A stretch of 34,845 nucleotides of DNA from NCBI GenBank assembly GCA_947632275.1, contig CANROR010000003.1, forward strand, positions 1-34,845, read 5' to 3'. Position numbers and translations under genes: made by a program. The stretch comes from an uncultured Bacilli bacterium. Its GTDB lineage: Bacteria > Bacillota_I > Bacilli_A > RF39 > UBA660. Every line of letters begins with the position of its first letter. Position 1 is the stretch's first letter. Of the stretch, positions 15,516 through 21,115 are shown in pieces. Below the pieces are notes generated by a model. It ran no database searches. It had not been told where the DNA came from and saw only the letters and a list, made by a program, of their open reading frames with translations.

Positions 15516-16784
15516 ATGAAAGAATATATGCCAAGAATTATTGATAAAATTTTAAAAAATAAATTAGAATATATGGGAGCTGTGGTAATCGAAGGACCTA
15601 AATGGTGTGGCAAGTCTACTACTGCTAAAAATATTGCTAAAAGTTTAATAGAACTACAAGATCCTGATAATAAAATTCAGTATGATAATATTAATGCTAC
15701 AAAGCCTTCTTTATTTTTAGAAGGAGAAAAACCTCGGTTATTAGATGAATGGCAAATGTATCCTGTTATTTGGGATTCGATTAGAACCGATGTAGATAGA
15801 ACAGGATTAAAAGGCCAATATATTCTTACAGGATCAACTAATATGTTAAATATTAATCATAAAACGATGCACAGTGGCACAGGAAGAATTGCTAAACTTA
15901 CGATGCGACCAATGTCACTATATGAATCTGGTGATTCTAATGGAAAAGTTTCCTTAGAAGATATCATTAATGGTAAAGATATATCTGGCGTATCGAATTT
16001 AGAATTAGAGGATATTATAAATGTTATAATTCGCGGTGGTTGGCCAGAATCTATTAATATTCCCGGGGATAATAAATATAAAATTGTTCGCGACTACGTA
16101 TATAGCTTATATAATGAAGAGGTAAGAAAAATTGATGGCGTTGAAAGAGATAAAATAAAAATGGAAGCTTTACTTAAAAGTCTTAGTCGAAACATTTCAA
16201 CTTCCGTTAGTAAATCAACTATAGCTAGTGATGTTGCCAATGTCTTTTCTAAAGAAGTATCTATGCCCACGGTAAATGATTATTTAATTACCTTAGAAAA
16301 ACTATTTGTTTTAGAATATGTTCCAGCAACTAATTTAAATTTGCGATCTTCTATTCAATTAAGAACTAGTCCCAAACTAGAATTAGTTGATCCTTCAATT
16401 GCTATTGCGGCTTTAGGCTTAAATAGAAATGATTTAATAAATGATTTAAATTTCATGGGCTTTATTTTTGAAAATTTATGTTATCGTGATTTAAAAATAT
16501 ACGCAGAGGCAATAGATGCTAATTTATTTTATTATCGTGATAATAAAGATTTTGAAGTTGATTTTATCCTTAAAACGGCTAATGATAAATGGGGGGCTAT
16601 TGAAGTTAAATTAGGAGCTAAGCAAATTGATGAAGCTGCCGAAACTCTTAAAAAATTTAAAACTAAAGTAGATTTAAAGAAAAGTGGAGAACCAGCATTT
16701 TTAATGGTTTTAACCGGTTCTAGTTTATCCTATGTAAGAGAAGATGGGGTTTATGTTGTATCAATTGGCAATTTAAAAAATTAA
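15516..16784 (+). CDS. AAA+ ATPase with C-terminal DUF4143 / PD-(D/E)XK-like region
   Basis: Walker A GPKWCGKST, Walker B-like RLLDEW, sensor-like ILTGSTN; C-terminal DFEVDFILKTANDKWGAIEVKLG. Confidence 0.9.
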   Translation: MKEYMPRIIDKILKNKLEYMGAVVIEGPKWCGKSTTAKNIAKSLIELQDPDNKIQYDNINATKPSLFLEGEKPRLLDEWQMYPVIWDSIRTDVDRTGLKGQYILTGSTNMLNINHKTMHSGTGRIAKLTMRPMSLYESGDSNGKVSLEDIINGKDISGVSNLELEDIINVIIRGGWPESINIPGDNKYKIVRDYVYSLYNEEVRKIDGVERDKIKMEALLKSLSRNISTSVSKSTIASDVANVFSKEVSMPTVNDYLITLEKLFVLEYVPATNLNLRSSIQLRTSPKLELVDPSIAIAALGLNRNDLINDLNFMGFIFENLCYRDLKIYAEAIDANLFYYRDNKDFEVDFILKTANDKWGAIEVKLGAKQIDEAAETLKKFKTKVDLKKSGEPAFLMVLTGSSLSYVREDGVYVVSIGNLKN

Positions 16785-16853: not shown

Positions 16854-17289
16854 TTAATCTTTTTTTGCTTTATTTTGTTCTGAATTTTTTCTACGATATT
16901 TAACAATAATTAGGGAAGATGCTAATAAAATAATAGCAATGCACCCTAAAATATAATATCCATTATAATTTTTAGGAGGATAAAAACTATTCATTAATTC
17001 ATCAACTACTGGTGTTCTTTGCGTTAAAAATTCTTTTATTTGATTTAAATCGTGGCCAGGAATTGTTCCCCAACGATCTTGTTCTTTGGTAAATACTTCT
17101 TGAGGAATTTGATTTTCAAAATTATTAAATTCTTGCATAACATAATCAACATTTAGAAATTCTTTCTTTCATCTTTTTGGCTAGCCATATTGGATAAGTT
17201 ACCATTTAAATATAGCTTTGGCAATTCATTGGCTTTAACCATTGGAATACTTAAAACTAAAATTATAAAATAACAAATTTATTCATCAT
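16854..17289 (-). pseudogene. Decayed CotH-family protein: N-terminal and C-terminal remnants with an internal deletion
   Basis: Minus strand upstream part (frameshifted): ..FIILVLSIPMVKANELPKLYLNGNLSNMASQKDERKNF*, a signal peptide plus a CotH-like N-terminus. 16854..17138 encodes a CotH-like C-terminal piece FENQIPQEVFTKEQDRWGTIPGHDLNQIKEFLTQRTPVVDELM plus a TM anchor. The two parts are in different frames and nearly abut. Confidence 0.68.
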
Positions 17290-17385: not shown

Positions 17386-17414
17386 TTGAAAATATATATA
17401 TATATATATATAAT
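17386..17414 (+). promoter_or_regulatory. SigA-type promoter whose spacer is a (TA)n tract
   Basis: TTGAAA (17386-17391), 17 bp of ATATAT.., TATAAT (17409-17414); (TA)10 spans 17393-17412. Confidence 0.75.
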
Positions 17415-17463: not shown

Positions 17464-18168
17464 ATGAAAACGTTATCAGTTTATCGAACAGAAAATAAGT
17501 ATATTATAAATTCTATTCAAATGCAAAATATAAAAGCTAAATTGGATAAAATCTTAAAAAGAGATTTTCATTCCCAAAATGGTAGTTATATGGTTAGAAG
17601 TTTATATTTTGATTCAATTAATAATATTGATTTTCAAACTAAATTAGCCGGCACGGAAATACGAAAAAAAATTAGAATAAGAACATATGATACGCATGCT
17701 AATAAATGCAAATTAGAAATGAAAGCTAAAAATGGTGATAATCAACATAAAATTAGCTTATGGATTACGAAAGACGATACTTACCAATTAATAAATCGAA
17801 AATTTGATGTTTTAAAAAAATATTTTAATACAAATGAAGCAGCAATAGATATTTACTTAACAATGAGATTAGGTTGCTACATACCGGTTGTAATGGTGGA
17901 ATATGAACGGATTGCGTATACTTATCCTATTAATAATGCGAGAATTACATTTGATTTTAATATAAAAAGTTCTGAAAGTAATTTTGATTTATTTGATTCT
18001 AATATTTTATACAATAATATAATGTTAGAAAATATAGTTTTGGAAGTTAAATATAATGGTAAAAGTATTAGTTTTATAAATAACATTTTAAATAAGTTTA
18101 AAATTGTAAAAACATCAATAAGTAAATATTGTTTAAGTCGATATATATTTTATGATTTTAATTTTTAG
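17464..18168 (+). CDS. VTC-domain protein (polyphosphate polymerase-like)
   Basis: YRTENKYII, RKKIRIRTYD, KLEMKAK, VMVEYERIAY, LEVKYNG, SKYCLSRYI: basic beta-strand pattern of VTC/TTM tunnel proteins. Confidence 0.85.
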   Translation: MKTLSVYRTENKYIINSIQMQNIKAKLDKILKRDFHSQNGSYMVRSLYFDSINNIDFQTKLAGTEIRKKIRIRTYDTHANKCKLEMKAKNGDNQHKISLWITKDDTYQLINRKFDVLKKYFNTNEAAIDIYLTMRLGCYIPVVMVEYERIAYTYPINNARITFDFNIKSSESNFDLFDSNILYNNIMLENIVLEVKYNGKSISFINNILNKFKIVKTSISKYCLSRYIFYDFNF

Positions 18169-18178
18169 GAGGTAAAAA

Positions 18179-18847
18179 ATGACAAAAGAAAAAATATTTA
18201 ATTACTTTTTAACAAATAATGCTAATTTAGGAGTAAAAATGATTGTTTTTACCATGTTAGCAGCATTAGTAATTGCTAGTATAATTTATGTAACTTATTA
18301 TAATACTCATAAAGGTGTTGCTTATAATAAAGGGTTTAATGCTTCATTAATAATTGTTTTATTAATTTCGGTTGTAATAATGCTAATGATAAGTAGCAAT
18401 ATTGTTATTTCTTTAGGGATGGTCGGAGCATTATCAATAGTTCGTTTTCGGACGGCAGTAAAGGATAGTAGAGATACAATTTTTATATTTTGGTCGATAA
18501 CTGAAGGTTTATGTGTTGGTTCTTTGAATTTTAAATTAGCTTTTATAACGACGTTATTTATTTCCATAATTTTATTAATTCTTACTAATTTGCCAAAATT
18601 AAATTGTAAATATTTACTTGTAATTACGGGAAATAATATTGATAATTTGGCAATCGAAAAAATCTTAAATACGTATTCAACACATAATAAGATAAGATCA
18701 AATAATAAGAATGAAGAAAGTCAAGAAATAATATATGAAATAAGAACTAAAAAAGAATTAGATGCTAATATAGTAAACGAATTAGTAAAAACAAAAGGAA
18801 TTGAAACTGTAAATTATGTTATTGAATCTAGCGAAACAGTTGGTTAA
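18179..18847 (+). CDS. DUF4956-family membrane protein
   Basis: Several TM segments followed by GMVGALSIVRFRTAVKDSRDTIFIFWSITEGLCVG, characteristic of DUF4956. Confidence 0.87.
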   Translation: MTKEKIFNYFLTNNANLGVKMIVFTMLAALVIASIIYVTYYNTHKGVAYNKGFNASLIIVLLISVVIMLMISSNIVISLGMVGALSIVRFRTAVKDSRDTIFIFWSITEGLCVGSLNFKLAFITTLFISIILLILTNLPKLNCKYLLVITGNNIDNLAIEKILNTYSTHNKIRSNNKNEESQEIIYEIRTKKELDANIVNELVKTKGIETVNYVIESSETVG

Positions 18848-18849
18848 TT

Positions 18850-21063
18850 ATGAAAACTAAATTTTTAAAATGGCAATTAGTTATTACAATTGGTATTTTT
18901 CTTATAGTAATATTTTCTTTTTATTATTTTGAAAATAAAAATTTAAAAGCATACCCGGATGATGTTTTATCGTTTAATATTAATAGTGGTTTTTATGATA
19001 AAGAAATTGATATCGAAATTAAAAAATCATTTTCTTTGCCATTTGGAACCAAATTATATTACACCTTAGATGGGAATGATCCCTCAAATGAAAGCAATTT
19101 ATATACAGGTAAAATTTCTTTATCCCTTGATGAAAAAAATTTAAAAGTTTATCCTTTAAAAGTTGTTGCATATTATAAAGGCAATTATAGTGAAATTTAT
19201 AATGAAACTTACATATTGGATAAAGAAATAAAAGAAAATGATATAACACTTATAAGTATTACCTCGGATGAAAAAAATTTATATGATTATGATAAAGGTA
19301 TTTTAGTTAAAGGAGCAAATGATAACTATTATCAACGAAGTGATGATTGGCTAAGGGATGCCCATATTGCCATTTTTAGTGAAAAAGGCGAAAATTTATT
19401 ATCCCAAAATATATTGTTGGGAGTATCAGGGGGAAGTAATTCTTCTGAAAATCCCAAATCATTTAAAATAAAGGCCATAAATGAGGAAAAATTAAATTTA
19501 AATTTTTATGATGAAGATTATAAAGCGTCTTTTTCCTTAATAAATAATTATAATAGTTTAAGATTAAGATCAGGATCTCAAGATTTAAAAACTGGAAATA
19601 TCCGTTCAGGAATAATTAGCCAACTTGCTAGTGATAGTAATTTTGACGGTGCTTCAATTTCTAAAAGAGCAGTAGTATTTCTTAACGGTGAGTTTTATGG
19701 TATTCACGATATAGAACAAAATTATTCAAATTCTTTTTTAGCTAAAAAATATTCTTTACCAAATTCTGATTTAATTGAAAAATATAAGGGTAAGGATATT
19801 ACAACGACAGTTGACGCTAAAATAATTCAATATTTTTATCAAGATTTAAATATGGAACAAAATCGACAAGAATTAGAAAAATATGTGGATATGGATAGTT
19901 ATTTATTTTATTATGCTATTGAAATTTTAGCTAATAATATTGATTGGCCAAATAATAATTTTGAAATATGGCGTTACACCGGTGAGTACAATCCAAATAA
20001 TAAATATACGGACGGAAGATATAGATTTTTAATTTATGATGTTGATGCCATTTTTTCTGGAGATATCCATATTGGCGATTTAGGGGATGATTATCGTGAT
20101 GTATTAATGTTAATTATGAATAATATGTACAATCAACAAAATACATCATTTGTTCAAGTAATGAAATCAACTTATTATCGAAATAAATTTGTTAGAATTG
20201 TAGAAGATTTATTAAATACATCTTTTTCTAGAGAAAATATGCTAAAAATTGCTGATGAAGAAGCTAATAAAATTAATAAAGCAGTTTCAACTTATTACAC
20301 GAAAGAAGAAAAAAATAATTTTTTATATCATGTTGAGTATATAAAAGAAAATATGGAAAATCGGAAAAAAGAAATTGAAAATGACTTTAATCAATTATTT
20401 GCTTTAAAAGAAAAACATAAAATAAATATTGCTTCTACCACTGGGATGAAAATTTATTGGAATAATGTGGAATTATTGCAAAATGAACAATATGAAAATG
20501 AATATTATACCGATATTAAATTGGATTTTCATTACGAAGAATACCCAGGGTATAAATTTCAATATTGGCTTGTAAATGGTAAAAAAATATATGATAAAGA
20601 TTTAATTATTGACAACAATTATAAAAATAAAAATGTGGAAATTAAAATTGTAACGGAATATGTACCAGATATAAATCATTTAATAATTAGTGAAATTTAT
20701 TCTAATGGAAGCTATGATTGGATAAAAATTACTAATACGGGAAAAAATGAGATTAATTTAAAAAATTATTTTCTTTCGGATAATATAAATAAATTAGATA
20801 AATATCGGTTACCAGATGTAATTTTAAAAAGTAATCAAAGTATAATTATAAATGGTAGCAAAAATTATTATGCGTTAGGAGATTATATTTCAAATTTTAA
20901 TTTAAAAGAATATGAATATCTTTATTTGACTTATAATGATCAAATATGCGATAGTTTACAAGTGCCAAGAACATCAAGTATCGAAACATATGGTCGAGTT
21001 GATAATAGTAATACTTTTAAATTTTTCATAAATTATAATAATTTACGAAAAAATAATACGTAA
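18850..21063 (+). CDS. CotH-family (atypical kinase) secreted/anchored protein with chitobiase-like N-terminal and lamin-tail-like C-terminal domains
   Basis: N-terminal TM; FGTKLYYTLDGNDPSNESNLYTG (chitobiase C-like); CotH core LRSGSQDLKTGNIRSGIISQLAS, RAVVFLNGEFYGIHDIEQNYS, NNIDWPNNNFEIWRY, RFLIYDVDAIFSG; LIISEIYSNGSYDWIKITNTGKNEINLKNYFLSDN (LTD-like). Confidence 0.87.
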   Translation: MKTKFLKWQLVITIGIFLIVIFSFYYFENKNLKAYPDDVLSFNINSGFYDKEIDIEIKKSFSLPFGTKLYYTLDGNDPSNESNLYTGKISLSLDEKNLKVYPLKVVAYYKGNYSEIYNETYILDKEIKENDITLISITSDEKNLYDYDKGILVKGANDNYYQRSDDWLRDAHIAIFSEKGENLLSQNILLGVSGGSNSSENPKSFKIKAINEEKLNLNFYDEDYKASFSLINNYNSLRLRSGSQDLKTGNIRSGIISQLASDSNFDGASISKRAVVFLNGEFYGIHDIEQNYSNSFLAKKYSLPNSDLIEKYKGKDITTTVDAKIIQYFYQDLNMEQNRQELEKYVDMDSYLFYYAIEILANNIDWPNNNFEIWRYTGEYNPNNKYTDGRYRFLIYDVDAIFSGDIHIGDLGDDYRDVLMLIMNNMYNQQNTSFVQVMKSTYYRNKFVRIVEDLLNTSFSRENMLKIADEEANKINKAVSTYYTKEEKNNFLYHVEYIKENMENRKKEIENDFNQLFALKEKHKINIASTTGMKIYWNNVELLQNEQYENEYYTDIKLDFHYEEYPGYKFQYWLVNGKKIYDKDLIIDNNYKNKNVEIKIVTEYVPDINHLIISEIYSNGSYDWIKITNTGKNEINLKNYFLSDNINKLDKYRLPDVILKSNQSIIINGSKNYYALGDYISNFNLKEYEYLYLTYNDQICDSLQVPRTSSIETYGRVDNSNTFKFFINYNNLRKNNT

Positions 21064-21086
21064 TTAAACAAAATAATTCGCTAAAT

Positions 21087-21115
21087 TTGCATTTTTGGCA
21101 TATATATGCTATAAT
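21087..21115 (+). promoter_or_regulatory. SigA-type promoter of the acyltransferase gene
   Basis: TTGCAT (21087-21092), 17 bp, TATAAT (21110-21115), with TGC extended -10. Confidence 0.62.

Follow-up and report, generated by a model that had tools for sequence, protein, structure and literature searches.

A packed VTC-DUF4956-CotH gene trio found outside Pel loci in an uncultured Bacilli bacterium, a possible polyphosphate-linked surface module

The 34,845-nucleotide stretch of an uncultured Bacilli genome analysed here (the window) carries three packed genes coding for a VTC-domain protein, a DUF4956 membrane protein and a CotH protein, and this trio may constitute a self-contained, probably acquired surface module for the synthesis, and perhaps the export, of polyphosphate, with an outer CotH enzyme working on a surface glycan or protein (rough probability 0.45). 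The ORFs and Pfam families assigned in the first-pass annotation were recovered: all three genes are on the forward strand, with VTC at 17464..18168 (234 aa, PF09359; a candidate triphosphate-tunnel polymerase of the Vtc4 kind), DUF4956 at 18179..18847 (222 aa, PF16316) and CotH at 18850..21063 (737 aa, PF08757; N-terminally anchored and predicted extracytoplasmic). The intergenic gaps given by the ORF coordinates are 10 bp between VTC and DUF4956 and 2 bp between DUF4956 and CotH, a spacing which fits a single operon. The host assembly has a size of 1.14 Mb and is 92% complete, so that gene absences in this genome are provisional.

The VTC ORF matched its Pfam family with an E-value of 9.4e-34, above the curated cut-off, and consists of the VTC domain alone, with neither SPX domain nor transmembrane segment according to Pfam and hydrophobicity prediction. 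Single-sequence phmmer searches of the PDB gave no match for VTC or CotH, whereas alignment profiles did match, and the profile of 11 VTC sequences retrieved yeast Vtc4 (3g3q) with an E-value of 8.5e-18. The alignment showed that the window residues R8, K12, R71, R73, E85, K87, K96, R149, R160, E194, K196, S220 and K221 correspond to Vtc4 R196, K200, R264, R266, E279, K281, K294, R361, R373, E426, K428, S457 and K458, respectively, and D164 to D377. Twelve of these 13 tunnel residues were invariant across 86 VTC proteins, bar one alignment gap, and S220 was kept in 80 of the 86. The window protein retains a complete basic tunnel together with the metal-ligand glutamate and the catalytic lysine (K12, R71, R73, K87, K96, R149, R160, E194, K221), as expected from the earlier annotation; the yeast VTC is impaired by the joint substitution of R264, R266 and E426. 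Judged from these residues, the window VTC is likely a polyphosphate-making enzyme of the Vtc4 type. It could instead be a CYTH/TTM-type hydrolase (tripolyphosphatase or NTPase), the TTM fold being mainly hydrolytic, and in a hand alignment E10, at a site acidic in 85 of the 86 proteins and occupied by T198 in Vtc4, falls on the second glutamate of the ExExK motif. We consider this hydrolytic activity improbable, as the VTC profile retrieved VTC-complex chains only, and no CYTH hydrolase, from the PDB at E ≤ 0.1, and as R8 and K196 are basic where hydrolases have glutamate (positions aligned by hand with those that PMC4641920 describes). No report on the activity of a bacterial VTC domain was found in the literature searched, and the viral contigs scanned with two VTC proteins yielded no relatives. 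Neither PPK1 nor PPK2 was found in the host genome at its 92% completeness, so the VTC, if active, would be the only recognised polyphosphate maker of this bacterium; the trio suggests that bacteria may make polyphosphate by a route independent of PPK.

The DUF4956 ORF adjoins VTC, matched PF16316 (E 2e-9, above the curated cut-off) and codes for a polytopic protein, the model of which (pLDDT 86.7) exhibited five hydrophobic helices and a C-terminal beta-alpha-beta-beta-alpha-beta domain. A VRFR motif was found at residues 88-91, with R89 and R91 kept in 80 of 81 sequences. The nearest structures to the C-terminal domain were ACT-like, that of MgtC included, at weak E-values (MgtC 2lqj, E 0.021). 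Against the curated MgtC/SapB models the protein fell short of membership (PF02308, E 0.1; NF007431, 21.3 bits for a cut-off of 214), and it models as an MgtC-like membrane protein bearing an ACT domain. Like the yeast VTC complex (Vtc4/Vtc1/Vtc3; PMC9911596), the window has a tunnel domain, with catalytic residues in common, whose gene sits beside that of a membrane partner. In contrast to that complex, the VTC is short and separate, it bears neither the SPX nor the Vtc1-type transmembrane domain by which the eukaryotic complex is recognised, and the partner is the MgtC-like DUF4956 instead of Vtc1.

The two families were then found to be closely associated. Among 247 Bacilli genomes, VTC was present in 68, DUF4956 in 70 and both in 66 (Fisher p 2e-52), with DUF4956 located at most 700 bp away on the same strand for 74 of the 78 VTC genes. 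Two of the four non-adjacent VTC genes are near contig ends, one is separated by a 1.6-kb gap and one is a fragment; the four genomes with DUF4956 only gave weak matches, below the cut-off. At 9 of 70 VTC loci with downstream room, no DUF4956 was called directly after VTC, one of them (L063) having it upstream, and since some of these losses look like ORF-caller losses, the count over the 247 Bacilli is the cleaner figure. The co-occurrence assumed in the first-pass annotation thus extends far beyond close relatives (66 of the 68 VTC-carrying Bacilli, and two synthase settings described below). Of the outcomes named there as refuting the reading, the two that sequences can reveal, lost tunnel residues and co-conservation confined to close relatives, were both contradicted by the data. 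At the loci examined, the third gene coded for CotH or for a carbohydrate-binding Cthe_2159 protein, which makes VTC-DUF4956 the core and the outer protein the variable part. The Cthe_2159 trios (loci L015, L016, L017, L019 and L022) have the same two-gene core as the window and differ by their third gene and by their VTC, which falls in a separate tree group. CotH, which had been taken as part of the unit, is present here but is not obligatory, unlike the VTC-DUF4956 pair; this obligate core provides DUF4956 with a testable partner.

The CotH ORF matched PF08757 with an E-value of 1.7e-19 and, in its flanks, Fn3_assoc (7.6e-9), CHB_HEX_C_1 (3.4e-8) and LTD (1.5e-10), all above the curated cut-offs. 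A predicted signal-anchor helix (aa 3-29, 18856..18936), whose hydrophobicity supports membrane anchoring, is followed on the forward strand by the CHB_HEX_C_1/Fn3_assoc region (aa 46-121, 18985..19212; Pfam), the kinase-like core (aa 194-507, 19429..20370; Pfam, PDB profile and model) and the lamin tail domain (aa 609-672, 20674..20865; Pfam), in agreement with the anchored 737-aa protein with chitobiase-like and lamin-tail flanks first described. The model built from nine sequences (pLDDT 74.7) had the CotH kinase 5jda as best PDB match (E 2.4e-10), with a TM-score of 0.74 by target length. D365 and D397 correspond to the catalytic D228 and the metal-binding D251 of Bacillus CotH, both of which matter in that protein; this placement was made visually, using the alignment to 5jd9 together with the NNID and YDVD motifs of the window protein, and the D228-D251 spacing agrees exactly. 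The metal-binding aspartate proposed earlier in YDVDAIF is kept. The Bacillus spore-coat kinase (5jd9/5jda; PMC7821199) and the window CotH share the kinase-like core and the D228/D251 equivalents, whereas the latter is membrane-anchored, carries flanking beta domains and has 16% identity, i.e. a divergent core. Adjoining the trio, tblastn revealed a decayed second CotH gene on the reverse strand (16854..17278), with an N-terminal piece at 17162-17278, a C-terminal piece at 16854-17168 in another frame and about 290 codons lost relative to an intact paralogue on contig C5 (L001).

The joint function of the trio had been taken as not established, and the view of it as uncharacterised has to be corrected, the set being already published as Gram-positive Pel accessory genes with deletion phenotypes (PMC7112168; PMC12345266). 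In streptococci and clostridia, genes for CotH, a poly-phosphate polymerase, DUF4956 and DUF4832 are contiguous with pelDEADAFG (PMC7112168). In S. intermedius (PMC12345266, 2025), the mutant in the DUF4956 position produced more Pel and the CotH mutant less Pel, both aggregated less in artificial sputum, and for the deletion of SIR_1593, the VTC homologue, no change in Pel or aggregation was reported. The window trio resembles this accessory set (SIR_1592-1594) in grouping genes of the same three families and in having a secreted CotH with an FN3-type extra domain and, in the DUF4956 position, a protein with transmembrane segments and an ACT domain; it differs in that its CotH bears CHB_HEX/Fn3_assoc and LTD domains and in that it stands alone in its clade.

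These phenotypes bear on a different explanation, in which VTC and DUF4956 are a sensing or regulatory pair tuning a surface polysaccharide, with no polymer exported and with CotH or Cthe_2159 as a structural or modifying effector. The tunnel of VTC would bind a phosphate-rich ligand, DUF4956 has similarities to MgtC/SapB and to the ACT domains found in MgtC and GTP pyrophosphokinase, and loss of the protein in the DUF4956 position raised Pel while lowering aggregation. The silent VTC deletion and the MgtC-like DUF4956 keep this explanation alive, and the same two points, with a DUF4956 resembling MgtC/SapB and not Vtc1, speak against polyphosphate synthesis and export. On the other side, the whole Vtc4 catalytic set is invariant, K458 and E426 included, which exceeds the needs of a binding site, and we hold a purely regulatory pair to be a serious but rather unlikely alternative to the polyphosphate module.

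Trio synteny was not found outside Pel loci by the authors of the S. intermedius study (PMC12345266). The trio nevertheless occurs outside them: the window has no recognised pel gene with which it could be contiguous as with pelDEADAFG, and PelG had no match in nine VTC-carrying Bacilli genomes, the host and eight others. NELoc-2 of C. perfringens (PMC2879425) looks like an earlier non-Pel case, with genes for VTC, a 'tubulin' (226/222 aa), CotH, a 685-aa protein, a HEAT protein of 377 aa and a chitin-synthase-like glycosyltransferase of 466 aa. The VTC and CotH families are those of the window, order and sizes equal those of loci L020 and L029, and by order and size the 'tubulin' gene would be DUF4956, as in these two loci; the 685-aa, HEAT and GT2 genes are missing from the window.

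Scanning bacterial and archaeal genomes with a four-row CotH-type query set yielded 80 loci, a sample in which CotH-type trios are favoured by the choice of query. In most of them the trio is followed by a protein of about 710 aa, a HEAT protein and a GT2 synthase, and in fewer by MBOAT, AlgX-like and GT2-PilZ genes. A family of about 700 aa with no Pfam match lies between the CotH and HEAT/GT2 genes at some 50 loci (for example L029, 2996-5119). Neither synthase gene set (GT2-HEAT or MBOAT-AlgX-BcsA) follows the window trio, and the host genome gave just short, weak local matches to GT2 synthases (best E 4.9e-7). The VTC tree placed the window in an eight-member synthase-less clade, mostly of Lachnospiraceae, with a support of 99/89 from a bootstrap not fully settled; the standalone claim concerns this clade, the wider synthase-less label taking in some loci cut by contig ends. 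Within the clade, identity to the window in VTC and DUF4956 is roughly 38-61%, and the trio genes are the sole families common to non-sister loci, generic acyltransferase and ABC matches aside. Because the trio occurs next to two synthase types other than that of Pel and also on its own, it appears to be a module of general use in the envelope, built on an obligate VTC-DUF4956 pair. The scant GT2 matches and the degraded CotH copy next door would also suit an accessory left behind after the loss of its exopolysaccharide synthase, decaying and with no function, but the three frames are intact, the catalytic residues are kept and the synthase-less arrangement is repeated over the eight-member clade at the above identities, and such a relic is very improbable. 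Bacterium 1xD42-87 (L062, 2046-13313) carries tandem trios, a standalone one and one adjoining MBOAT/AlgX/GT2-PilZ genes.

The surroundings of the trio in the window supported the cell-surface setting proposed for it. The polysaccharide locus downstream, from 21159 onward, codes for a hexapeptide transferase, an ABC transporter, several glycosyltransferases, FdtA, a DegT aminotransferase and RmlA/RmlB-like proteins. It has a promoter-like site of its own on the forward strand (21086..21115, 10/12 matches with a TG extension), so that co-transcription with the trio is not assumed. Modification of a surface protein had been put forward at first; the surface setting stands, but modification or assembly of a glycan is at least as likely, as the usual neighbours are exopolysaccharide synthases. 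A sigma-70-like promoter candidate, TTGAAA-17-TATAAT over a (TA)n run, does precede the trio (17386..17414, forward strand, 11 of 12 consensus matches), yet promoter-like sites are no commoner in the region than in shuffled sequences (31 versus 39.1, sd 6.2), which makes the argument once drawn from it, for a surface and not a sporulation role, a weak one that does not discriminate. Upstream, the window contains GerA-type germination genes, spoIIGA and a sigE-type sigma gene, and as Bacillus CotH is a coat kinase, the trio might be a spore-surface module whose CotH phosphorylates coat proteins. This role is hardly probable, CotH being absent in 29 congeners and trios being present in non-sporing streptococci and Eggerthellaceae, with no CotB- or CotG-like target noticed nearby.

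For the polyphosphate module, we infer the following biochemical steps. The cytosolic VTC would polymerise phosphate from a nucleotide triphosphate in its Vtc4-type tunnel; DUF4956 would hold this enzyme in place or regulate it, and may carry the polymer across the membrane, like the transmembrane subunits of yeast VTC, a role deduced from its obligate adjacency, its ACT sensor-like domain and the arginines conserved within one of its membrane helices. The outer-anchored CotH, with its carbohydrate-associated flanks, could be a kinase or phosphotransferase whose substrate is a surface protein or an exported glycan. Elsewhere the trio would serve exopolysaccharide synthases, and here, synthase-less, it heads the ABC-transporter polysaccharide locus. 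The source of ATP for the spore-coat CotH is an unanswered question (PMC7821199), and the trio is a candidate answer to that of phosphate for extracytoplasmic CotH kinases. The bolder proposal, that exported polyphosphate replaces ATP as the phosphoryl donor with which CotH phosphorylates a surface glycan or protein, is quite unlikely in our estimate.

GC3 is 0.14-0.15 in the trio and 0.25-0.29 in the majority of the window's core genes; it is also low across much of the polysaccharide locus. Neither VTC nor CotH was found in the 29 congeners. These absences, the low GC3 and the nearest VTC relatives, mostly from Lachnospiraceae, support, and do not prove, a horizontal gain, and the trio was probably acquired in this way. 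An AAA_14/DUF4143 ATPase of GC3 0.165 (15516-16784) separates the sigE-type gene from the broken CotH and suggests that the region after sigE is variable. The Rfam scan of the window gave zero matches, so no c-di-GMP riboswitch is present in it; at nine related loci, it detected T-box and glycine riboswitches, tRNAs and a group II intron, with no obvious trio switch. Two standalone trios begin just downstream of a tRNA (L041, 9769-9852; L028, 1-76) and another just downstream of the group II intron match (L025, 169-234), hinting that standalone trios are mobile.
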